Of a stretch of DNA of 64,000 nt, positions 3,089-63,393 are shown in pieces. Made by a program: the position numbers and the translations under genes. The DNA comes from Gonocerus acuteangulatus (taxonomy: Eukaryota > Arthropoda > Insecta > Hemiptera > Coreidae). The DNA lies in contig OX328124.1 of the NCBI GenBank assembly GCA_946811695.1, positions 88,699,972 to 88,763,971 on the forward strand, written 5' to 3'. Positions within the stretch are counted from its first letter, which is position 1, and each line of letters starts with the position of its first letter. The notes under the pieces were generated by a model. It searched no databases. It had not been told where the DNA came from and was given only the letters and a program-made list of their open reading frames with translations.

Positions 3089-3840
3089 GCTGTTACCCGG
3101 CGTGCCATGCTTCACCTACTTTCTGCACATAGAAAAGCCTAAATAAATTAGAAACCAAAAATCTTATAACACGAATCTGTAACTGTTTCGAACCCGTGAC
3201 CTCCCAACTGGGAGTCCTAGAGAACTTTGACCTAACCTATAAAACCCCCTTATCAAGACATACATGTATGCCAAGTTTGGTAAAAATCTGTCAAACGGTG
3301 TGGGTTTGTATAAAGAACAAACATACAGACAGACAGAAGGTAGCCGTTTTGACCTAGCCTATGGCAATCGCCGTATCAAGATCTTCCTGTGTTCCAACTT
3401 AGGCCAAAATCGTTCGAACGGTGTGGATTTTTATAGGAAACAAACATACAGACAGACAGCTGGTAGAGGTTTTTGACCCAGCCTACGGCACTCTCCAGAT
3501 TAGGATCTACCTGTGTACCGAGTTTAGTCAAAATCGGACGAACGGTGTGGATTTTTATAGGGAACAAACATACAGACAGACAGCTGGTAGAGGTTTTTGT
3601 CCTAGCCTACGGCAATTCAGATTAGGATCTACCTGTGTACCGAGTTTAGTCAAAATCGGACGAACAGTGTGGATTTTTATAGGAAACAAACATACAGATA
3701 GACAGCTGGTAGAGGTTTTTGACCTAGCCTACGAAACTCCCCAGATTAAGATCTGAATGTGTACCGAGTTTAGTCAAAATCGGACGAACGGTGTGGATTT
3801 GTATATGGGACAAACATGCAGACAGACAGCTGGTAGACGT
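3089..3840 (+). repeat. dispersed repeat with ~122-bp tandem core, left part
   Basis: Begins 'ctagctgttacccggcg', a start typical of short dispersed insect repeats. It then carries tandem units built on 'cggtgtggatttttatagg', 'caaacatacagacagacag' and 'gacctagcctac'. The anchor 'gtgtgg' falls at about 3299, 3421, 3545, 3667 and 3791, a period of 122-124 bp. The array is interrupted at 3840 and resumes at 6781. Open frames across it are by-products of the repetition. Confidence 0.8.
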
Positions 3841-3977
3841 TTTAGCGCGGTTCCTCCTTCCCCCATAGGGAGGAACCCCGCTTATAAGGTTGATACAATG
3901 AAACAATCCGGAAGTGCCGACTAGAAAATTTCGCGTTTCAGAACCCCTAGAAACCAAAAATAACGGTGGTTCAAATT

Positions 3978-4034
<57 letters not shown>
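3978..4034. repeat. (TA)n microsatellite
   Basis: About 55 nt of alternating TA at the fixed core position of the family B element. Confidence 0.95.
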
Positions 4035-4038
<4 letters not shown>

Positions 4039-6238
4039 CTGTTCGCTCATTTCTGGCTTCCCTAATGGTCCGATTGTGATGAAATTTGGTACAAAAATCC
4101 GTCGTACAATTTGAAAGGTCAAGTTCGTTAACCAGCAGAATCCGCCCACTGGAAGATGGCGTTTGGGGCGAAATTCGCGCAAAAAAAATCGTATCGCTTA
4201 CGTTTTTTAGTTCATATGCTTGTAAGTACTCGTTTTATAGGCATCTTGGGCTAGTAAAACGAATGAAACCATTTTCAAGGCGATAGCTTAACCCGTTTTG
4301 GAGCAAATTGGAAAAATATTTTTCGAATACCGTTTTTGGTTTGGGTACTTAGAATCATGGGATTCAGTTGAAACATTTTCTGCATGTTCTACTTTCATTA
4401 AAACTAATATGTTGAAATTTTTGTTACTTTTGGAGTTTTGGAAGGGTTAGAATAAAATATTTTAAAACAGACATAAAAAGTTTTGGTAACTTTGTATACT
4501 TTCCTTAATTTTTTTTTTCCTTTTCTTTTGGTGCATCTACTGCTGAGGTCATTAGCACCAACTTTCCTTAATATTTCGAAAAAGGTTGAGAATATTGGCA
4601 AACGGAGAGTTACCATGCGAAAGCTTACTAAATGTTCTACAAAAATGGTTCTGATGAAAGTTTTGATTAGGCGATGTCAATCGGAGAAATAAGTGCTTAA
4701 ACTTTGAAGTAATTGATTTCGTTTATTCGAACGGTTCGTTTTGTTTGTTTTTATTCTTTGTTGTTTTTCGTTGCTTATAGTTGGATAATGTATTTGACAA
4801 TAAAACAGATTAATTAAAATAAGAAAAACAATTCATTGTTAAAAATATATCAGGCTGTACCGTATGAAATGTCAGTTTTGGATTTGCCGATTTCCTTCAA
4901 ATGTCTTGAAACTGTCGAGGCTCCTACTCCGAGTTCTTTGGCATATTCCCTAGTGTTTTCAATTGCTTATAGTAGTCAAATGTATTTGCCAATAAAACAG
5001 GATACGTATAATTAGAAACGATATTTTATTTTTGCGGAATCTTGGGATTCTCAGATGCCGTATGAATTCTCCACAAAAAATGTTTTGAAGAAATGTTTGA
5101 TGGAGTTTCGTTTATTTAAACGGATCTATTTGTGTTTCCGGCAGTTTTTGTTTTCACTTCTCGTTATTTTTGTACTTGCTTATAGCAGTCAAATGTATTT
5201 GTCAGTAAACAGGATACGTATAATTAGAATCAATATTTTGTTCGTTAGAATTCGAAGATGCCGTATGAATATCTAGATTACAGTACTGGTGTTGAATTGT
5301 TCTAAGTATTCCCTATTTTCATCTGTTGCCCATAGTTTTTTATTGTTAGTAGTTTTTTCTTATTGATTATAGAATATAAATCTATTTGGCTATAAAACAG
5401 GATACGTAAAATTAGTAACAATATTTCGGAGATTTCTGAGCGAAATGCCTGTAAGATTTTCTACCACCACGAACGGCGTTTTTCCTCTATTTTTATCCAC
5501 TAGTTAGGCTTTATTTGGCATATTATTCTATATATGTTTTATTTAGCAGGGGATTCTGATGAAATGTCTTGTTTTTGCTGTGGATTTTAATTACGATGTG
5601 TCTAAGATTGGGTTACATTAGCGACTCTACATAGTTAAGAACCGACGACGGAGGTTGACTTCTTGCTATGATTTAGTCTACATATTAAGTCCTGAATCCA
5701 AAAAATAAACTTCATAACGGTTAGATACTATGAGGGAATAGGGAGTGGGGTCAGTGCCCGTACAAACATAAGGTCCGCAGGATATTTACCTGCTAAGAGT
5801 TAATCCTCAACAGCTGTAAATATACCCCAGGTATCTGCCGACACAAATACAAAGCCTAGGCGGAGAGCACCCCAAAAACACAGATCCAAACATAGGTTAT
5901 ATACTAAATATTCATGAAGACTACTTAGTTGTAACCCGATTCATCAATTAGCAATCAATAGTTTTCAACACAGGTTCTATACTAAATATTGATAAAAAGT
6001 ATTTAAGTAGAAAAAAAAAAACAAGATTCATCAAGACTTCTTTTTGGTCCATTTGTATCTACTCCATAGACTTAATTAGGTATATTATTCTATATATTGA
6101 CTCGTTTTTCGTCAAGACTTGTTATTTGTCCTTCTGTATCTACTAGATAGGCTTTATTCGGCATATTATTCTATATAGGCTTTATTAGGCAGGGTATTCT
6201 ACTCAATCTTTCTTGTACTTCTTCTTGATCCTTCTGTA

Positions 6239-6500
6239 CATGGGCGTATATAGAAAACAATTTCGGGTGGGGCTGGGAAAATTTCGGGGGGGGGGGCTGA
6301 GACCATTTCCAGGGTATGGAATACTAAATATTTAGAGCTTGGAATAGTTTTAGGCAACTAAAACGCTATTAAACGCAAAATAAAATATGTTTTATGAACT
6401 AAGTGATCTTATTTAATTTATTTTTAAGGGTTTTACGAAAAGTTTTTATCATCAATTCAAAATTTCCGGAGGGGCTGCAGCTTCCTCATATACGCCCATG
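6239..6500. mobile_element. 262-bp MITE, 8-bp target duplication
   Basis: Ends CATGGGCGTATAT and (inverted) ATATACGCCCATG. It is flanked on both sides by the exact 8-mer CTTCTGTA (6231-6238 and 6501-6508). It contains long G-runs and a block shared with a second copy at 59615-59819. Eight-base duplication fits hAT or P superfamilies. The host sequence without the insert is visible in a neighbouring unit at about 6130-6150 ('ccttctgtatctactag'). Confidence 0.85.
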
Positions 6501-6780
6501 CTTCTGTATCCACTAGAAAGGCTTTATTAAGCATATTTTGTATTGATTTATAGAGCTTTGCTTTAGAATGAGAGCCGGATTGTGTAATTTCCGCTTCTCT
6601 GTATAAGTTAGCTACTGTCGGTCTCCCTGACGCCTTAATATCACTTTTATTCGAGAGGAGTTTGACAATTTTCACAAGATATATAAAAAAATAACTTTAT
6701 TTCTTTTCTAAGCTTATCAATGACACTAGGGACATGAACGGAACCGCGCTAAGATGATGCAGTTCCTGCGAGTCGGACTT

Positions 6781-7045
6781 TTTGACTTAGCCTACGACAC
6801 TCCTCAGATTAAGATCTACATGTGTACCGAGTTTAGTCAAAATCAGACGAACGGTGTGGATTTTTATAGGGAACAAACATACAGGCAGACAGCTGGTAGT
6901 TTTTTTTGACCTAGCCTAGGAGATTTCTCGTATCAAGACCTACCATTATTCCAAGTTTGGTCAAACGGTGTGGATTTGTATAAGGTACAAACAAACAGAC
7001 AGAAAAACATACAGACAGGTGATTTTTATATATATAGATTTTCCT
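6781..7045 (+). repeat. dispersed ~122-bp repeat, right part
   Basis: Resumes exactly where 3840 stopped. Anchors 'gtgtgg' lie at about 6854 and 6968. It ends with 'caaacaaacagacag' and a short TA/AT run near 7030-7040. Confidence 0.8.
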
Positions 7046-7287: not shown

Positions 7288-8982
7288 TTTTAGCGCGGTT
7301 CCTCCCTCCCCCATAGGGAGGAACCCCGCTTATAAGGTTGATACAATGAAACAATCCGAAAGTGCCAACTAGAAAATTTCGCGTTTCAGAACCCCTAGAG
7401 ACCGAAAATAACGGTGGTTCAAATTTGTGTGTATATATATATATATTTGTCTGTTCGCTCTGTAGCTCCTAGACGAATGGTCCGATTTTGATGAAATTTG
7501 GTACAAAAATCTTTCGTCTAATTTGAAAGGTCAAGTTCGTTAACCAGCAAAATCCGCCTACTGGAAGATGGCGTTTGGGGCGAAATTCGCGCAAAAAAAA
7601 TCGTAACGCTTACGTTTTTGAGTTCATAAACTTGTAAGTACTCGTTTTATATGCTTCCTGGGCTAGGAAAACGAATGAAACCATTTTCAAGGCGATAGCT
7701 TTAACCGTTTTCGAGAAAATTGGAAAAATAGTTTTTGAATACCGTTTTTGGTTTGGGTACTTAGAATCATGGGATTCAGTTGAAACATTTTCTGCATGTT
7801 CTACTTTCATCAAAACTAATATGTTGAAATTTTGGTTACGTTTGGAGTTAAGGAAGGGTTAGAATAAAATATTTTATTAACAGACATAAAAATTTTTAGT
7901 AACTTTGTTTACTTTCCTTAATATCTCGAAAAAGGTTGAGAATCTTGGTAAACGGAAGAATACCATTAGAAAGCTTATTAAATGCTCTAAAAACAAGGTT
8001 CTGATGAAAGTTTTGATTAGGCGATGTCAATCGGAGAAATAAGAGCTTAAAACTTTGAAGTAATTGATTTCGCTTATTCGAACTGTTCTTTTGTCTGTTT
8101 TTTATCCCTTGTTATTTTTTAATTGCTTATAGTTGGATAATGTATTTGAAAATAAAACAGGTTAAGAAAAACAATTTAATATTAGAGATATGGATTTCCA
8201 AGATATAGCTTTTCAACTGCCTAGCGTCCTTCCTAGGGACGGTTGTTTGTCTTTGATTTTGGTACTTAGAATTATGGGATACAGTTGAAACATTTTCTGC
8301 ATGTTCGAATTTCATCAACACTAATACGTTGAAATTTTTGTTACGTTTAGAGTAAAGGAAGGGTTAGAATAAAATATTTTATTAACAGACAAAAAAAGTT
8401 TTGGTAACTTTGTATACTTTCGTTAGTATCTCGAAAACCGTTGACATTCTTGTGAAGCGGAAGATTACCATTCGAAAGCTTACTAAATGCTCTACAGAAA
8501 AGGTTCTGAAGAAAGTTTTAATTAGGCGATGTCAATCGGAGAAATAAGTGCTTAAAACTTTAAATTAATTGATTTCGTTTATTCGAATGGTTCTTTTTGT
8601 CTGTTTTATGCCTTGTTATTTTTTCAAATGCTTATAGTTGGATAATGTATTTGACAATAAAACTGGTTAAGTAAAATAACAAAAACAATTTATTGTTAGA
8701 AATATAGATTTCCAGGATTCCAAGACCTTGTCACAAGCGGGCCCGTTTCTAGTGTTAGCAGACCCTTCCAGGTAAGATAATAAATCATGACCTTTCAAGA
8801 CTTTACTACACACAGGAATGGCGTTAGTGACCTTAAGGGTTGACACGCCATTATAATAATTAATTAAAAAAAAAAAGACTGTTGGAACCAAAATAATAAC
8901 TGCTTCTATTTTAATCTTTCCAAATTAGACTAGGGATATGAACGGAACCGCGCTAAGGTTATGCAGTTCCTGCGAGACGGAC
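7288..8982 (+). mobile_element. Helentron-like element, family B, copy 2
   Basis: The 5' end TTTTAGCGCGGTTCC with hairpin and the 3' end GGAACCGCGCTAAGG, GCAGTTCCTGC, GAGACGGACTTTTTT are both intact. The TA core is short (about 7432-7446). The interior has two related sub-blocks containing 'ttatagttggataatgtatttga' pieces (8124 and 8632), so part of the body is duplicated. T-runs flank both ends. No ORF of note. Confidence 0.75.
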
Positions 8983-12730: not shown

Positions 12731-13952
12731 AAGTCCGTCACGCAGGAGCTGCATCACTAAGCACTTTCCTCAGAATTTGGGTAGTGTAGACTGCTTTCCA
12801 GAACAATTTGCTTAAAATATCCTACATAAATAAAATAAAAACGTGAATAGTTCTCATTTTGTAATGAGTAACTGATCAATTATTAATTTGCATCCAGAGT
12901 TATGTTTAGACATGGTACCTACTACACTACGTAATAAATACAAAAATCCTCATATTATCGTATTTTGATCTAACGCAGGAACAGAATACAGTCACTCTAG
13001 TGGTAGAAAGCGCTCCTTGCGGCGGCTTTGTGAACCTACGTCTGCCGGCTTTTCTATTCAAATATATTACAAATTAAACCCCCGCTTTCCGATTGACCGA
13101 TTCAGCTCATTTTTACAACACTTCTTTCTCATGAGTTACCCACGACGTATACAGCGTTTCGTTACAATACAGCAGAAATTACGACCGGTATGAGTATATT
13201 AGGAATTTGGGTCCGGAGTAAACCCCCCCTTCTAATGAACCGATTTAGTTTCTTTTTACAACACATATTTACCTGTAGATTACCACTTCGAATACCGAGT
13301 TTCGTCAAAATATACCAAAAATCACGGCTGGTAGTGGCGAATTGGTATTGTGGGTCCGGAGTAAACCCCCCCCCCCTCCTAATGAACCGATTTCGTTTAT
13401 TTTTACAACACATATTTACCTGTGGATTAGCACTACGAATACCGAGTTTCGTCGAAATATACCAAAAATCACGGCTGGTAGTGGCGAATTGGTATTGTGG
13501 GTCCGGAGTAAACCCCCCCTTCTAATGAACCGATTTAGTTCATATTTATATCTCACTTTTCTCTCTATATTAACACTACGAATACCAAGTTTCGTTGAAA
13601 TATAACAAATATTACGGCTGACATAGTCAAATAAGTGTTTTGGGTTCGGGGTAAACCCCCCCTTCCGGTGGACCGACTTTGGTGGTTAACGAACTCGTTC
13701 AATCGTTTGCTAATTGAATGCTATATACCAAGTTTCGTGACGAAAAAACAAAAACTCTGGCCGCTATCGTGTTAACAGACACATATATATATATGCATAT
13801 ATATATATATATATATAGATATATATAAATTTTAACGGGGGTCATTTTCGGTGTCTACTAGGTAGGATCGATAAAGATTTGAAGAAATTTTTCAAAAATT
13901 CCGTCATGAGTCCAACCTCAATAGCTACTTTCCTTCGGAGGAAAGTGCTAAA
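12731..13952 (-). mobile_element. Helentron-like element, family A, copy 1 (in nAChR intron)
   Basis: In minus orientation the 5' end is TTTTTAGCACTTTCCTCCG with the hairpin CTTTCC/GGAAAG (13930-13946). The (TA)n core is at about 13785-13830. The 3' end is GAGGAAAGTGCTTA, hairpin GCAGCTCCTGC, then GTGACGGACTTTTTTTT (12731-12775). The body holds three or four tandem units of about 155 bp anchored on 'gagtaaaccccccct' and 'taccaagtttcgt'. Open frames within it are by-products of these units. Confidence 0.7.
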
Positions 13953-29353: not shown

Positions 29354-30505
29354 GTAGACTAGCTGAATACCCGTGCTTCGTCACGGCAGATAAGTAGTTA
29401 TTTTATTGCGTTAAATAATTTTTCATTAAAATTACGTTACTATACAATTCTGTGGTTTATTACAGCACGGTTCCCGTCATACTATATTTTATTCAATGGG
29501 CGTTAAAATTTAAAAGTTTATGTTTCCAAGAAGTCATATGGTAACACCCAATATATTTACGAGTATTACCAAGGTTATAGGCGAGGAGGCTGTGCAAGGG
29601 TTCCAGATATTATTACCTCGCCTGGAAAACCTAAGGATATGCCATACATCACGGTTTGACCGGAACTGTCCTGGTATTTTGCAATTGTTTCGGTGTCCCG
29701 CCCAGTTTTATCAATGTCCCGGAAAAGATGTAAAAAGTAATGAATTCATGTTTATAAGAATCTTTTTTAAATCGGTTATTTTTCTACAATTAACATTTTT
29801 ACTACTGCTCACAGTGTCAAAGAAATCAGAAGTAATCTAACTGTAAAACGCTGGAACTACCTGCACAGCGCTGCCAGCTGCTGGACACTACTATTTGGCT
29901 GAGAGATTGTTTTAAGAAAATCAAGTAGCAAAAAAAGTTCCGTTCTTATTTTTAAGGTTTGGGTAGACTAACAGTTTAGGATTCCCCCTTCCCGTTAGTT
30001 GCTAGGCTTAAAACTCACCAACCATTTTGCTTATAATTTGTACTCTTTTTATCCCCCCCCCCCTGGTATGCCCATCCCATATTAATGTGTCTCGGTTTAA
30101 CTCTCCAAAAATATGGCAAGCCTATCTGATGGGGACAGGCAGAAAAGAAACACAATTAAAACTCTATGAGGGACAGTTAATTTCTAGTAATTCAAGGTCT
30201 GCCATCATAGTTGAAATTAACCTCAATTAGAAATAAAACTATGAGATAGATAATGTAAGGTAACAGCTGTTCTTTATCGTCCTAGCAACGCAGGCTGCCT
30301 AGGCTTGCCTTCTCTAACCAACTCAAACTTTAAACCCCCCTAAAAATGCTTAAAAATACGAATATCAAAAAATCCTTTCTTAGCGAGCGCCTGCGTTATA
30401 TAGGGAGTGTCCATGCAAAATTTCCAAATTTTATGTCGAGCGGTTTGGGCTGGGCGTTGATAGATGAGTGAGTGAGTGAGTGGTATTTGACAAATATATA
30501 GTAGA
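29354..30505 (+). repeat. dispersed repeat D, copy 2
   Basis: Same start (CTAGCTGAATACCCGTGC) and same end with (GAGT)n and 'tttgacaaatatatagtag'. The blocks 'gctgttctttatcgtccta' and 'ctttcttagcgagcg' are shared with copy 1 and, inverted, with 32570-32795. The Penelope-like sequence begins at its right end. Open frames inside it are not recognisable proteins. Confidence 0.6.
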
Positions 30506-30982: not shown

Positions 30983-31380
30983 TTAAGTCATCTTGTTTAT
31001 TAAATTAAAAAATATTTTATCCAGGTATTTAATATCTGTTTTTTTGTTGACGGTCTTTTTCCTATTTTTAATTATGTGTATATTTTCCTTAATTTTTCTT
31101 TTTATGGGGTTTTTCTCCTTATCTAATATCTTTACCGTGTCAAAATTAAATGTGTGGCTATATTGTATCCCATGATCCACCAATGCAGTCTTGTTGTCTT
31201 TCTCATCAAGGTTTTTGGCATGTTGTTTGATTCTCTTTTTTAAAAGTTGTCCCGATTCTCCTACATACACCTTATCACACATTGCACAATCAATTTGATA
31301 TATGTTATATTTGGTTTCCCTTTCTTTTAAATCATCTTTAATTCGGCTGTAGCTTTTAATGATTTTGTCGTGATATATCC
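30983..31380 (-). pseudogene. Penelope-like retroelement GIY-YIG endonuclease fragment (minus copy)
   Basis: From YHDKIIKSYSRIKDD the frame continues YNIYQIDCAMCDKVYVGESG, KRIKQH, HGIQYSH and FNLINKMT-stop at 30983-30985. The NIY/YVG pair, the CxxC and the downstream His residues are the zinc-linked GIY-YIG form seen in Penelope-like elements, where the domain sits C-terminal to the reverse transcriptase and nicks target DNA. The fragment is cut at 31380, where the inverted plus copy begins. Residues before YHDKI in the longer open frame are antisense of the neighbour and not part of this protein. The RT domain is missing. Confidence 0.85.
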
Positions 31381-32070
31381 GTGAAACGTAAACTTCAGGA
31401 TACACAAACAATAGACGACATAAAAGGCAACCAAGAAAAAAGAAGAAAATTAATACAAAGTAAAATTTATGATTTTTTTGACGATAGGAAAACAAACATT
31501 TTAAATACAAACAGAGTTGTAGCAGATAAACTCATACACAATGAACATATTTATAAACAGAAATTGGATAACGACAGTAAAGATATGAAAACTTTAGAGC
31601 TGGTTAATTATATTACCTTTCGTTATAATCCCATACTTGCCAATGAGATAAAACAAAACTGTAAAGACCTAGGAAGAATCTCCTGGATATATCACGACAA
31701 AATCATAAAATGCTACAGCCGAATTAAAGATGATTTAAAAGAAAGGGAAACCAAATATAACATATATCAAATTGATTGTGCAATGTGTGATAAGGTGTAT
31801 GTAGGAGAATCGGGACAACTTTTAAAAAAGAGAATCAAACAACATGCCAAAAACCTTGACGAGAAAGACAACAAGACTGCATTGGTGGATCATGGGATAC
31901 AATATAGCCACACATTTAATTTTGACACGGTAAAGATATTAAACCCCATAAAAAGAAAAATTAAGGAAAATATACACATAATTAAAAATAGGAAAAAGAC
32001 CGTCAACAAAAAAACAGATATTAAATATCTGGATAAAATATTTTTTAATTTAATAAACAAGATGACTTAA
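31381..32070 (+). CDS. Penelope-like retroelement, linker plus GIY-YIG endonuclease (5'-truncated)
   Basis: A 229-codon frame. Residues 1-100 are a Lys/Asp-rich linker (MKRKLQDTQTIDD..., ...LANEIKQNC). Residues ~124-152 contain YNIYQIDCAMCDKVYVGESG and KRIKQH. A basic tail follows (KENIHIIKNRKKTV) that includes the expected catalytic Glu of the fold, then INKMT and a stop at 32068-32070. In Penelope-like elements this endonuclease follows an RT related to telomerase; no RT motif is present here, so the copy is 5'-truncated at the junction with the inverted partner. It lacks four residues (DKEK) found in the minus copy after VKIL. It is likely inactive alone and retained because the insertion is recent. 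Family confidence is high; the start codon is formal. Confidence 0.85.
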   Translation: MKRKLQDTQTIDDIKGNQEKRRKLIQSKIYDFFDDRKTNILNTNRVVADKLIHNEHIYKQKLDNDSKDMKTLELVNYITFRYNPILANEIKQNCKDLGRISWIYHDKIIKCYSRIKDDLKERETKYNIYQIDCAMCDKVYVGESGQLLKKRIKQHAKNLDEKDNKTALVDHGIQYSHTFNFDTVKILNPIKRKIKENIHIIKNRKKTVNKKTDIKYLDKIFFNLINKMT

Positions 32071-34110: not shown

Positions 34111-34709
34111 AAAGTCTGTCACACAGGAGCTGCATAACTAAGCACTTTCCTCAGAATTGGGTAGTGTCGAGTGAGTGCATTCCTAAATAATTTGCTTAAA
34201 ATAACCTAAATAGATATATAAAATAAAAACATTAATAGTTCTGCTCTTTTGAATTAATTATGAACACCTGTTTCAATTCAATTCAAACATAGTACATACT
34301 AAATCCCCCCTTCCAATAGTCCGATTTAGTTCATTTTTACAACACTTCTTTCTTATTAGATACCCAGTTCGTATACCGTGTTTTGTTACAATTCAGCAGA
34401 GATTACGACCGGTATGAGCAAATTAGTGATTTGAGTCCTAATGTACCGATTTAGTTTATTTTTACAACACATTTTTCTCTTTATTTGAACAAAACGAATA
34501 CCGAGTTTTGTTGAAATATAACAAAAATGATGACTGGTATTGGTAAATAACTACTTTGGCTCCGGAGTAAACCTCCCTTCTGGATGGACTGATTTTGTTG
34601 GTTAAAGAACTCGTTCAATCATTTGATGGGGGAATACTATATACCAAGTTTCGTGGCGAAAAAACAAAAACTCTGGCCTGTATCGTGTGTTAACGGACAC
34701 ATATATAAC

Positions 34710-34778
<69 letters not shown>

Positions 34779-34901
34779 TTTAACTGGGGTCATTTTCGGT
34801 GTCTACTAGGTAGGATCAATAAAGATTCAAAGAAATTTTTCAAAAATTCCGTCATGAGTGCAACCTCAATAGCTACTTCCCTTCGGAGGAAAATGCTAAA
34901 A
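34111..34901 (-). mobile_element. Helentron-like element, family A, copy 2
   Basis: Left (3') end 'agtctgtcacacaggagctg' and 'taagcactttcctcag'; right (5') end 'cttcggaggaaaatgcta'. The (TA)n core is at 34715-34774. The 3' hairpin is weakened (GGAGCTGC, one base lost). The body has the same ~150-bp units as copy 1, but fewer. Confidence 0.65.
34715..34774. repeat. (TA)n microsatellite
   Basis: About 56 nt of alternating TA, the core of family A copy 2. Confidence 0.95.
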
Positions 34902-37371: not shown

Positions 37372-37541
37372 GGTGTCTACTCCTCCTTTTGTAGAATTGG
37401 ATTCATAAGCAGGAGATGATGGGTTCGATTCCCACCTCCAGCAGTAATTTTCTCATCTCAGGGCTCACTGCACCCTGGATGTCGGCGCTAATGACCTAGA
37501 TGTAGATGCGCCGTAAAAAAAAAAAAAAAAAGAAGAAAAAA

Positions 37542-37542
<1 letters not shown>
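37372..37542 (+). mobile_element. tRNA(Met)-like SINE (family Y)
   Basis: A tRNA-like head with 'gaattggattcataagcagg' (CAT at the anticodon position) and box B GGGTTCGATTCCC. The body is 'ctcatctcagggctc', 'gcaccctggatgtcggcgct' and 'gatgcgccgt', with an A-rich tail. It belongs to the same family as 62834-63034. Confidence 0.8.
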
Positions 37543-46335: not shown

Positions 46336-46559
46336 TTAAAAAAGTCCGACTCGCAGGAACTGCATCATCTTAGCGCGGTTCCGTTCTTATCTCTAGACTC
46401 ATTTAAAATGATTAAAATAGAAGCTGTTATTATTTTGGGTCCACATTTCTAGAAAGCATGAAGATTAGATAGTTAGCCGTCGAGGTGATAAGTAAAGATG
46501 GAATGGTTGGGATTCGGCTAAAGAAATCTCAATACGATTTTTGTTAAAAAATCTATATT

Positions 46560-50915: not shown

Positions 50916-51964
50916 TTGTGATGCTGGAAACAGTCTTTGAGATAAGTGGAACAAACATTAATGTAACTCATTTTTGGTTTTGGTTCATGTAATCGTGGGG
51001 TTCCATTGAAATGTGTTCTATGTGTTTGAATTTCTTCTAAACTAAGATATTGATTACATTTGGAGTTAAGGAAAAAAAAAATATTAGTGGACGTTTCGGA
51101 TCTTCGTATTTTTAAGTAAATATTTTTAAATCGGTTGAAAAGTTGTGGCAAGGGGAAGGTTACCATTCGAAAGCTTACTGATGTCTCTATAAAAATGGTT
51201 ATAAAGTAATTTCCGATGGGGTGATGTAAATCAGAGAAATAAAGGCTTAAAACTTCGAAAGCATTTATTTTGTTCTTTTGTACTGGGTTTTGTGTTTGTT
51301 TAACTCACTTGTTTCAAATTGTAATTGTCAGAAAAATTAGTCTATTAGTAAAAGAAGGCAAGAAAATGAGAAACTAAATGATAATAGTGTTTTCGCTGGG
51401 CGAACGTTTGTTGGCGAGGAGTCAGTTCCGGTTAGGTTACTGTCACTTTCCAGTTGCGGCGACTTCCTTCTGTTTGAGATTTTATTTTATATTTTTAACG
51501 AAACATCCAACCCTAGCAAAGAGTATATTTATTCCTTTACTAATAGCGCTAGGGTTATAAACGGAACCGCGCAAAGATGACGCAGTTCCTGTGAGTCGGA
51601 CTATTTTTTAATTTTTCTCTTAAATTGCGTGGTTTCCAAACTATTTCCCTCAAAAGCTGGATTTATTTGTTATGTTAAGGAGCATGTTTATATTAAATTC
51701 TTTTATCTTACGCTTTTCCGATACAAACTTTGTCATTTTCCAATCAACAATCACACCACACAAGCGTTTACTCGATCAGAAGGTAAGCTCATAATGGCGC
51801 TGGCCGGACAACACGCAGTGCACTCGCAGTTTTCCTATCCTCACCCACCCGTTACACCATTTTGTCCAATTTGGCCAACGAAATCGGCGCGCCGACTGGA
51901 TGGGCGGCGGCGGCGCGCCACTCAAAACCCGGCGTGGCGTAGCGGCGTCGGCGCGGCGCGCATG

Positions 51965-51968
<4 letters not shown>

Positions 51969-52031
<63 letters not shown>

Positions 52032-52050
52032 TATTTATATATATATATAC
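51969..52050. repeat. (TA)n microsatellite
   Basis: TA run with a few T/A irregularities; the right half of the family B core split by the 47876-51968 insertion. Confidence 0.95.
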
Positions 52051-52292
52051 AAATTTGAACCACCGTTATTTTCGGTCTCTAGGGGTTCTGAAACGCGAAA
52101 TTTTCTAGTCGGCACTTCCGGATTGTTTCATTGTATCAACCTTATAAGCGGGGTTCCTCCCTATGGGGGAGGGAGGAACCGCGCTAAAATCAGACTGTCA
52201 TATCTTCAAAACGTAAATTGATCTTAATTAAACAATGAGATTAATTGAAATAATATGATTTTGAATGATTTGAAAATAGATTTTGATTTTTT

Positions 52293-55558: not shown

Positions 55559-55932
55559 TCTCTCTTTCTTTACTTTTCTCTCTATATTACCGCTACGAAT
55601 ACCAAGTTTCGTTGAAATATAACAAATATTACGGCTGACATGGTCAAATTAGTGTTTTGGGTTCGGGGTAAACCCCCCCTTCCGGTGGACCGACTTTGGT
55701 GGTTAACGAACTCGTTAAATCGTTTGCTAATTGAATGCTATATACCAAGTTTCGTGACGAAAAAACAAAAACTCTGGCCGTTATCGTGTTAACAGACATA
55801 TATATAAATTTTAACGGGGGTCATTTTCGGTGTCTACTAGGTAGGATCGATAAAGATTTGAAGAAATTTTTCAAAAATTCCGTCATGAGTCCAACCTCAA
55901 TAGCTACTTTCCTTCGGAGGAAAGTGCTAAAA
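55559..55932 (-). mobile_element. family A Helentron-like fragment (5' end kept)
   Basis: The body units 'gaataccaagtttcgttgaa' and 'gggtaaacccccccttccgg', 'ggggtcattttcggtgtcta', and the 5' end CTTTCCTTCGGAGGAAAG, TGCTAAAAA are present. The 3' end is missing and the TA core is reduced to 'acatatatataaa'. Confidence 0.7.
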
Positions 55933-60607: not shown

Positions 60608-60730
60608 TTTTAGCACTTTCCTCCGAAGGAAAGTAGCTATTTAGGTTGCACTCATGACGGAATTTTTGAAAAATTTCTTCAAATCTCCATCGAACCTACC
60701 TAGTAGGCACCGAAAATGACCCCCGTTAAA

Positions 60731-60792
<62 letters not shown>

Positions 60793-61694
60793 CTGTTAAC
60801 ACGATAGCGGCCAGAGTTTTTGTTTTTTCTTCACGAAACGTGGTATATAGCGTTCAATTAGCAAACGATTGAACGAGTTCGTTAACCACCAAAATCGGTC
60901 CACCGAGAGGGGGGGTTTACCCCGAACCCAAAACACTAATTTGACCCTGCCAGCCGTAGTTTTTGTTATATTTCATCGAAACTCGGTATTCGTTTTGTTG
61001 ATCTAAAGAGAGACATACGTTGTAAGAATGAACTAAATCGGTTTATTAGGAGGGGGGGGTTTACTCCGGACCCAGATTACCAATTTGCCACTACCAGCCG
61101 TAATTTTTGTTACATTTCAAGGAAACTCGGTATTCGTGATGGTAATCAACAGAGAAAAATGGGTTATAAAAATAAACTAAATCGAGTTATTTGGAGGGAG
61201 GGGGGTTACTCCGGACCTAAAGTACTAATATACTCATATCGGTCGTAATTTCTGCTGTATTGTAACGAAACGCGGTTACGTCATGGGTATCTCGTGAGAA
61301 AGAATTGTTGTACAAATTAAGTAAATCGGTGGATTGGAAAGGAGGGTATACTTTAAACTCTGTTTCATTGGAATTAGCCGGCCAAAGGCGCCGCGAGGAG
61401 CGCTATCTCCCACTATGGGGACTGTATCCTGTTCCTGCGTCAGATCAAAAGACGGAAAATGAAGTTTTTGTGTATTTATTAGGTAGTACAGTATCATATA
61501 TTAACATAACTCTGGAAGCAAATTATTTACAAAATTAATAATTGAACAGTTCTCATAAGAAATGCAGATGGGCAGAACTATTCACGTTTTTATTTTATTT
61601 ATATAGGTTATTTACAGCAAATTATTCAGTAATGTAGTCTGCACTACAAAAATTCTGAGGAAAGTGCTTAGTCATGCAGCTCCTGCGTGACGGA
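60608..61694 (+). mobile_element. Helentron-like element, family A, copy 3
   Basis: 5' end TTTTAGCACTTTCCTCCG with hairpin CTTTCC/GGAAAG; (TA)n core 60731-60786; three body units carrying 'tttactccggacc'-type segments; 3' end GAGGAAAGTGCTTAGTCATG, hairpin GCAGCTCCTGC, GTGACGGACTTTTTTTT. Both ends are intact. The segment 61373-61440 has a GC-richer unit ('ggcgccgcgaggagcgctat') not seen in other copies. Confidence 0.72.
60731..60786. repeat. (TA)n microsatellite
   Basis: About 55 nt of alternating TA, the core of family A copy 3. Confidence 0.95.
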
Positions 61695-61699
61695 CTTTT

Positions 61700-62346: not shown

Positions 62347-63073
62347 AAAAAGTCCGACTCGCAGGAACTGCATCATCTTAGCGCGGTTCCTGATCATATC
62401 CCTATTGTCATTCGAAAAGCTTAGAATAGAAACAGATAAAATTGGGTTCGGCCTTTGTTCAAAGGGCTTTATGACTTTACCTGGTCGGGTAAAGTGATAA
62501 AGACCCCAGAATCCTCTTCTAGAGATACCTATTTAGTACGTTTCAATGCATTGGAAAATATGAAAATTTTCACATATTCCTGTGTTCTTTTACTGTAGTA
62601 ATAATTCTACAAATAAAATCAATTAAAAAAATAAAATAAAAAAAAAAAAAACCAACAGCATAAAGGCAATTGAAAATATTCAAAAGACGTCATCGATTCT
62701 CTTTCTCTTGGTAAGCTATATTTCTAACAATAAATTGTTGTTCTTATTTTACTTAATCTGTTTTATTGTCAAATACATTATCCAACTTTAAGCAATTAAA
62801 AAATAACAAGGAATAAACACAATAGGGTTCCTCGGGGTCTCCCGTGGTCTAGTGGCTAGCGCGCTAGATTCATAAGCGGGAGATGGTGGGTTCGATCCCC
62901 ACCGGCGCCAGAAAATTTCTCATCTCAGGGCTCGCTGAGAAAATTCCTGGCTGCACCCTAGGTGTCGGCGCTAATGGCCAAGATTTATGTCGATGCGCCG
63001 TAAAAAAAAAAAAAAAAAATAAAATAAAAATAAAAATAGGGTTCCTCCCTATGAAGGGAGAACCGCGCTAAAA
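62347..63073 (-). mobile_element. Helentron-like element, family B, copy 4 (short)
   Basis: Left (3') end AAAAAAGTCCGACTCGCAGG, AACTGCATCATC, TTAGCGCGGTTCC; right (5') end GGTTCCTCCC, hairpin, GGAGAACCGCGCTAAAAT. The central body, including the TA core, is largely deleted. A SINE has inserted into the 5' hairpin region. Confidence 0.72.
62834..63034 (+). mobile_element. tRNA(Met)-like SINE (family Y) with 13-bp target duplication
   Basis: AATAGGGTTCCTC stands at both 62821-62833 and 63035-63047. The head is 'cccgtggtctagtggctagc' (box A) with 'gattcataagc' (CAT anticodon position) and box B GGTTCGATCCC. The body has 'ctcatctcagggctcgctga', 'gcaccctaggtgtcggcgct' and 'gatgcgccgt', then an A-rich tail with TAAAA units. 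It splits the 5' hairpin of family B copy 4, so it is younger than that element. Confidence 0.88.
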
Positions 63074-63318
63074 TAAAACAATACAAGGAATCACCAAGAT
63101 AAAATTCAAATGAAATTAATAATAACGTGTATCAATTTGTTTTATCCCGTGCAGTTCTCATCAGAAGGGCAATCGCATGATTATCTCAAATCTGTTCATA
63201 TTTGATTCCATCTATAAATATCATGAATTTTTGAGTCATATCTTTTGATACACTTTTGTGTCCCTTCCTTTCTAATGTCCAACGAGTATTATGATCTTCA
63301 TTAGAACCAGTCTCCATG

Positions 63319-63393
63319 CTCGGGAAAATTCCTCGCTGCACCCTGGATGTCGGCGCTAATACCCTAGATCTCGATGCGGCGAAAAAAAAAATC
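63319..63393 (+). mobile_element. SINE tail fragment (family Y)
   Basis: 'gctgcaccctggatgtcggc', 'gctaataccctagat', 'gatgcggcg' and an A-run match the 3' half of the family Y SINE. Confidence 0.7.

Follow-up and report, generated by a model that had tools for sequence, protein, structure and literature searches.

Helitron2 elements, as described by Bao and Jurka (2013; PMC3627910), carry paired repeats and hairpins at their ends, and those of Chlamydomonas insert after TTTT. Helentrons, together with the HINE and DINE-1 elements related to them, encode a Rep-helicase-endonuclease protein with the Rep signature RGSPHxH, insert at TT without modifying the target, and are outnumbered by their non-autonomous copies (Thomas, Vadnagara and Pritham, 2014; PMC4067079). 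Helitron2-type elements of Fusarium have paired asymmetric repeats and 3′ termini that are conserved among relatives; composites have been proposed for them, and there is evidence for joined ends, that is, a circle (PMC5148889). In a further group of Helentrons a papain-fold deubiquitinase of the VTD (herpes tegument-like) or OTU class is fused to the Rep-helicase-endonuclease (PMC9741609). Here we describe two sister families of transposable elements, A and B, in a 64,000-nucleotide stretch of the genome of the coreid bug Gonocerus acuteangulatus (contig OX328124.1, positions 88,699,972 to 88,763,971; below, the window). These families are very probably non-autonomous Helentrons (HINEs, Helitron2 type), and the Rep-helicase-endonuclease proteins that would mobilise them in trans are encoded elsewhere in this genome.

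The likeness to the described systems extends to most of these features: the paired-repeat and 5′ hairpin anatomy, the RGSPHxH motif, insertion without target modification, the excess of non-autonomous copies, the conserved 3′ termini and the fused papain-fold deubiquitinase all recur here. By the published rule of at least 11 bp of identical repeat per family (PMC4067079), A and B are two families. Unlike the Helitron2 elements described earlier (PMC3627910), the two differ by a block of three to four bases in three places and share the remaining 3′ end. They also depart from the Helentrons reported in PMC4067079, both as two sister families in one genome distinguished by a central repeat block and in having a USP domain in place of the OTU protease reported there. 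The Fusarium elements are fungal, the accessible part of their description mentions no deubiquitinase (PMC5148889), and the composites found here join non-autonomous to autonomous A sequence. Features of canonical Helitron1 elements (5′ TC, 3′ CTRR, A/T insertion, RGLPH) were found neither at the A and B ends nor in the Rep motif of the A lineage.

Structure of the element ends

Searches of the window with TTAGCGCGGTTCC and TAGCACTTTCCTC, each allowing up to two mismatches, returned 12 and 10 matches, against shuffle means of 0.39 (maximum 3) and 1.2 (maximum 4). Seven of the ten TAGCACTTTCCTC matches, those with no or one mismatch, are element ends, and the other three, with two mismatches, are not. 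The 3′ terminus GATGCAGTTCCTGCGAGTCGGACTTTTT (up to three mismatches) was matched six times in the window and never in 100 shuffles. The end searches confirm the two Helentron-like families with paired repeats that a sequence-only reading of the window had proposed.

Elements start, always behind T's, with TTAGCGCGGTTCCTCC in B and TTAGCACTTTCCTCC in A, and the 5′ repeats align lengthwise as TTAGC[GCGG]TTCC in B and TTAGC[ACT]TTCC in A. The central block (GCGG or ACT) differs jointly in the 5′ repeat, the hairpin arm (GGAGGAACCCCGCT in B, GAAGGAAAGTAGCTA in A) and the 3′ repeat (GGAACCGCGCTAA in B, GAGGAAAGTGCTTA in A). The repeats are inverted and asymmetric: the 5′ repeat lies at the terminus, whereas about 26 bp separate the 3′ repeat from the GGAC end. 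The sequence-only reading had the subterminal repeats replaced between the families; they looked unrelated to it since it had read the two strings out of phase with each other, and once aligned they match end to end except for three to four central bases, so that unrelated repeats were rejected. Its suggestion that each repeat pair has co-evolved fits this comparison and the predicted energies of the 5′/3′ repeat duplexes, which are -14.7 kcal/mol for A with A and -18.0 kcal/mol for B with B, against -5.8 and -7.2 kcal/mol for the crossed combinations. Compensatory repeat change has already been published for the related elements Helitron-1N1_CQu and Helitron-1N2_CQu (PMC3627910).

Three 5′ hairpins, formed by the 5′ repeat and folded as DNA, were far more stable than their shuffles (z -4.3, -5.2 and -5.2). 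For the putative short 3′ hairpin the folding energy does not reach significance (B, z 0.18, no excess; A, z -2.0, weak), and the case for it rests on conservation: GCAG-NNN-CTGC occurs in 22 of 29 places and GCAG-NNN-CTGT in four, in a search whose pattern (up to four mismatches) itself selects for the hairpin. Among 11 neighbouring 5′-3′ end pairs, 10 were usable as plausible single elements (seven B, three A), and all 10 are family-matched, for which our own arithmetic gives a chance of 1 in 120 under random re-pairing; with so small a sample this is support rather than proof. The remaining pair (52187 to 46340), also B with B, was set aside because it spans 5.8 kb and has an opposite-strand B 3′ end (51606) between its ends.

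Copies and insertion sites

Complete copies in the window comprise three of B (2,937, 1,693 and 720 bp) and three of A (1,218, 785 and 1,085 bp). With four one-ended copies the totals are six B and four A, exceeding the minimum of four and three given by the sequence-only reading; the span 3841-6780, which that reading had assigned to both families, covers a single B copy. This copy, B1 (3842..6778, plus strand), is a complete non-autonomous element of 2,937 bp, recognised by both ends and by empty sites. Repeat search and folding place its 5′ subterminal repeat and 5′ hairpin at 3842..3884, and searches for the repeat and the terminus put the 3′ subterminal repeat at 6740..6783, along with the putative 3′ hairpin and the GGACTTTTT end. 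Between them, copies of an internal unit (5494..6238, in pieces 5494-5554, 6033-6094 and 6114-6238, all plus strand) match a tandem unit on contig C28 that is considered below.

Units of some 122 bp containing acaaacatacagacagacagc are arrayed in tandem at 3260-3840 and 6785-7020, and one of these units has B1 inserted in its T run. The paralogous empty unit at 3701 reads gacagctggtagaggtttttgacctagcctacg, those at 3455 and 3579 each depart from it by a single base, and the filled site reads ggtagacgtt[B1]tttttgacttagcctacg; T's alone were gained. For this one insertion the empty sites agree with the predicted insertion into a T run without fixed duplication beyond the T's, from which a T-only duplication is indistinguishable. 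A joined-flank search for the other five complete copies gave no clear empty site, many weak matches being T-rich sequence. Two further T's precede TTAGC in 12 of 16 distinct exact 5′ ends and three in the other 4, and 21 3′ ends carry from 1 to 12 T's after GGAC (four or more in 18, one in 3). HINEs are likewise reported to vary in their number of T's (PMC4067079), in agreement with these counts.

In the host genome (1.106 Gb, 135 contigs) the B 5′ 16-mer occurs exactly 30,338 times, 15,123 forward and 15,215 reverse, and its reversed-letter control 0 times. Most of these matches should be B 5′ ends, because in the copies seen neither the hairpin arm nor the 3′ repeat is identical to the 16-mer. 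Viral contigs gave no exact match to the B 3′ pattern. Taken alone, the elements of the window are ordinary HINEs.

Coding relatives of family A

A Pfam search for Helitron_like_N, in which each of 60 candidates was scored, gave 42 matches in the host genome. At the five places where the Rep motif was read it is RGLPHVH once, RGSPHVH twice (nearly identical), RGLQHFH once and RGKEH once, the last where a broken frame ends. The Rep motif RVEFQQRGSPHVH, present in both of the A-lineage pieces that were read, carries the published Helentron signature RGSPHxH (PMC4067079). A protein search with the RGSPHVH Rep found 68 matches (54 of 94 candidates scored), which group into 22 places. The copies at C1:106.76 Mb and C22:32.77 Mb (contig and position) together encode DUF6570, a Helitron_like_N Rep, PIF1 and UCH (PF00443) by Pfam. 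The C22 copy also has a stretch whose motifs we take to be those of an endonuclease, with relatives at L029, L031 and L032 by tblastn.

A-type 3′ ends are present at all four A-lineage loci with a fetched 3′ region, a count that omits three further places assigned to the lineage by identity. The expectation that full-length relatives with the same ends would code for Rep and helicase was thus borne out for the A 3′ ends; among the loci searched no B-ended Rep-helicase relative was found. The five pieces scanned with Pfam held no DDE domain, the sign of a transposase that the sequence-only reading had named as speaking against its proposal. In the three autonomous copies with a fetched 5′ region the 5′ end is the variant ATAGGACTTTCC. 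Among A-lineage copies dN/dS is 0.26 for Rep (one pair), 0.27 and 0.36 for the putative endonuclease and 0.45, 0.47 and 0.69 for the USP; values below 1 indicate divergence mostly under constraint, least clearly for the USP.

Other Rep classes were also encountered. Rep matches lie in open frames of 1,743 amino acids at C6:56326209 (L020) and C18:47870433, and the C6 protein carries the canonical Helitron motif RGLPHVH, indicating another class in the same genome. A third class, with RGLQHFH, was seen at L022 (C31:49935001-49938000), where a 607-amino-acid open frame is about 29% identical to the Helentron Rep.

Composite A copies

Non-autonomous A sequence lies directly upstream of all three autonomous copies for which the 5′ region was fetched (L025, L027 and L034). 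The copies at C1:106.76 Mb and C22:37.15 Mb have an identical junction at A3 position 981 and differing 3′ flanks, and directly before the copy at C22:32.77 Mb there is an A1-like copy that breaks off at position 754. We take ATAGGACTTTCC as the element's own 5′ end because it was found behind T runs in two different A contexts, and the part upstream of it as a probable non-autonomous A copy. The simplest reading of the composites would be that elements inserted into A copies at T runs and that the stretch bounded by the outer A 5′ end and the inner 3′ end moved later as a whole; if they moved in this way, the A enzyme would accept the 5′ end of a gene-less A copy. Two other accounts were rejected: simple nested insertion, as the rest of the host A copy is absent after the 3′ end, and a start of the autonomous element at the outer A 5′ end, in view of the inner end ATAGGACTTTCC.

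A second Rep lineage, a probable relative of family B

The Rep at C28:19.67 Mb matches the A-lineage Rep at 67% in the Rep domain, 75% at the N-terminal end and 38-72% in other pieces. Endonuclease and USP sequence is recognisable there (35-48% and 34-50%) in broken frames. Upstream of the Rep frame some 290-320 bp are colinear with B at 87%, and six tandem copies of a unit that matches B1 at 82-86% follow one another every 98 bp. The colinear segments that B1 and B2 have in common with C28 are missing from the A-lineage elements compared, whose likeness to B is confined to the surroundings of the 5′ (TA)n and the final 30 bp. From these segments we infer that C28 is probably a decayed autonomous relative of B, and its lineage would then be B's partner. 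The sequence-only reading had both families under a shared replication enzyme, which now appears doubtful, as A 3′ ends are carried by one Rep-helicase lineage and B has sequence in common with another. Downstream of the C28 Rep frame there is an exact B 5′ end, and B 3′ ends lie upstream on both strands, none of them bounding the frame; near C5:7.41 Mb an A 3′ end lies upstream of the Rep frame and does not bound it.

A USP-type deubiquitinase in Helentrons

The A-lineage elements encode a C-terminal USP-type deubiquitinase (PF00443, E 4e-15), which is found at the same C-terminal place in four copies and, as remains, in the C28 lineage. What we take to be the Cys and His boxes of the USP are kept in the C1:106.76 Mb copy. 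The 1,601-amino-acid Rep-helicase-endonuclease frame, compared with 5.8 billion proteins, had 473 matches, and among the 120 listed the tegument type (PF04843) was found in 21, OTU (PF02338) in 16, Ulp1 (PF02902) in two, USP (PF00443) in one and none of these in 80. The two best-scoring matches come from scale insects (41% and 40%), and rotifer and other matches are equally close in identity. The single USP match among those listed, P0043 (A0A8D9E244) of the psyllid Cacopsylla melanoneura, has the same order of DUF6570, Rep, PIF1, endonuclease and C-terminal USP; its core is 34% identical to that of the A lineage, its Rep motif is RGSVHTH, and the two USPs are 29% identical over the whole domain. 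The best solved USP structure matches the domain compared with P0043 at its C-terminal 57 residues only (E 2e-5). A search with the P0043 USP region, which requires shared words and long proteins, retrieved two of 530 candidates, P0043 itself and the wasp protein P0121, and further USP relatives may exist.

P0121, from Eretmocerus hayati, has 1,251 amino acids, a USP resembling the one in the psyllid Helentron and an N-terminus that by eye is Ulp1-like, and is possibly transposon-derived. Two further Helentron-like Rep-helicase proteins, P0022 and P0028, carry a Ulp1-type protease (PF02902), at the C-terminus in P0028.

OTU and tegument-type deubiquitinases in Helentrons have been published, the tegument type with tested activity, along with the view that a deubiquitinase benefits Helentrons whichever class it belongs to (PMC9741609), with which a USP fits. 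Among the top-ranked results in the open-access literature we found no report of a USP in Helentrons. The observation is therefore likely, though not certain, to be new in print, and it adds another deubiquitinase class to these elements.

Proposed mechanism and alternative explanations

A mechanism can be sketched in which an HUH Rep would nick at the 5′ T run and hairpin and the helicase would peel one strand off. On reaching the 3′ hairpin replication would halt; pairing of the 3′ repeat with the 5′ repeat would there open the 5′ hairpin, and the strand, or a circle, would enter a T run without fixed duplication. The start and stop roles of the 5′ hairpin, the repeat pairing and the 3′ hairpin were suggested by Bao and Jurka (PMC3627910), and the order of the enzymatic steps is our reconstruction. 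By this scheme the A enzyme would move the gene-less A copies, and the C-terminal USP may support transposition by removing ubiquitin. The termination step of Helentrons is a proposal drawn from anatomy, and sister families that differ by one small block, together with their coding relatives, make the proposed 5′/3′ repeat pairing directly testable. More tentatively, in a Helentron clade met both here and in a psyllid the USP could replace OTU or VTD and be needed for transposition, while two Rep-helicase lineages could have co-diverged with a private end code that chooses which copies are moved. That code would be the block of three to four bases, identical in the 5′ and 3′ repeats and complementary in the hairpin arm; we regard this joint proposal as doubtful as it stands.

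Several observations weigh against mobilisation by the A lineage and by C28. No examined copy has one uninterrupted frame: the C22:32.77 Mb copy is split into 487, 1601 and 258 amino acids, with a stop immediately behind the Cys that is presumably catalytic in the USP, and the C1:106.76 Mb copy misses about 870 bp where the C22 copy has its endonuclease, a domain (PF14529) that scored under the Pfam cut-off (E 0.019). The variant 5′ end ATAGGACTTTCC pairs less well with its own 3′ repeat (-11.7 kcal/mol), and most of the repeat is gone from the outer A 5′ end that precedes the C1 copy. C28 sits among B copies on both strands and is interrupted by a non-LTR-like frame, and part of its likeness to B may stem from the neighbouring copies; its 3′ end was not found, and its synonymous changes are saturated, precluding dN/dS. 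In the search for a B-ended Rep element, no 3′ end could be assigned at C28:19.67, C5:7.41, C9:92.34 or C22:32.33 Mb, the last having two degenerate 3′ ends on the strand opposite to the Rep match.

It is highly improbable that A and B are instead DNA transposons resembling miniature inverted-repeat transposable elements (MITEs), with ordinary terminal inverted repeats. Their paired inverted repeats would suit such elements, and DINE-1 was itself formerly called a MITE (PMC2374699), but the repeats are asymmetric, with the 3′ copy lying inside the end. The single empty-site comparison showed a gain of T's alone, and the asymmetry of the repeats and the Rep-helicase nature of the coding relatives with A-type ends led us to reject this explanation. 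Within the Helentron interpretation, one A-lineage Rep-helicase might move both families, the central repeat bases matching each other and not the enzyme. The homology of the A and B 3′ ends is in its favour, as are a 5′ stretch beside (TA)n common to both (B1 107-202 against the C1 copy, 86%) and the fact that the Helentron Rep frames of greatest length encountered (1,699 and 1,601 amino acids) belong to the A lineage. We nevertheless consider a single enzyme rather unlikely, since the internal sequence and tandem unit of B1 and B2 go with the C28 lineage and not with the A-lineage elements compared, and the A-type ends at every A-lineage locus examined also speak against it.

The role of the USP is a separate matter, as it could be a passenger, a piece of a host gene acquired in a single capture that plays no part in transposition. 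Helentrons do capture gene fragments (PMC4067079), the USP has a higher dN/dS (0.45-0.69) than Rep (0.26), and the C22:32.77 Mb copy has a stop inside the domain. A chance passenger would fit less well with the constant C-terminal place of the domain in four A-lineage copies, its remains in the diverged C28 lineage and its presence in the psyllid P0043. The preserved boxes of the C1:106.76 Mb copy, which presumably are catalytic motifs, point the same way, and we view a passenger as rather unlikely.

Other features of the window

The remaining B copies are B2 (7290..8982, plus strand), a complete element of 1,693 bp with both ends; B4 (62352..63071, minus strand), a complete short element of 720 bp whose interior is other repeat sequence; a 3′ end with subterminal repeat and no assigned 5′ end (46344..46382, minus strand); a degenerate 3′ end (51563..51606, plus strand); and a 5′ end with hairpin and (TA)n and no assigned 3′ end (51960..52187, minus strand). 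Family A is represented by A1 (12733..13950, minus strand), a complete non-autonomous element of 1,218 bp, the complete elements A2 (34114..34898, minus strand, 785 bp) and A3 (60611..61695, plus strand, 1,085 bp), and A4 (55572..55929, minus strand), a 5′ end for which no 3′ end was found. A (TA)n core is present in B1, B2, B3, A1, A2 and A3, with hardly any in A4 and none in B4.

Searched against Rfam, the window had no match at gathering scores. A SINE-like stretch inside and near B4 (62835-63038 and 63318-63392) recurs at 37399-37542 and on C28 (L029) with 78-89% identity, and on C28 it contains ggttcgattcccacc, which we take to resemble a tRNA B box. One reading frame is present in two inverted copies at 30983-31510 (minus strand) and 31381-32070 (plus strand), with a flank repeated in inverse at 30396 and 32657; it has a motif that is presumably like that of the GIY-YIG nucleases of Penelope-like elements.
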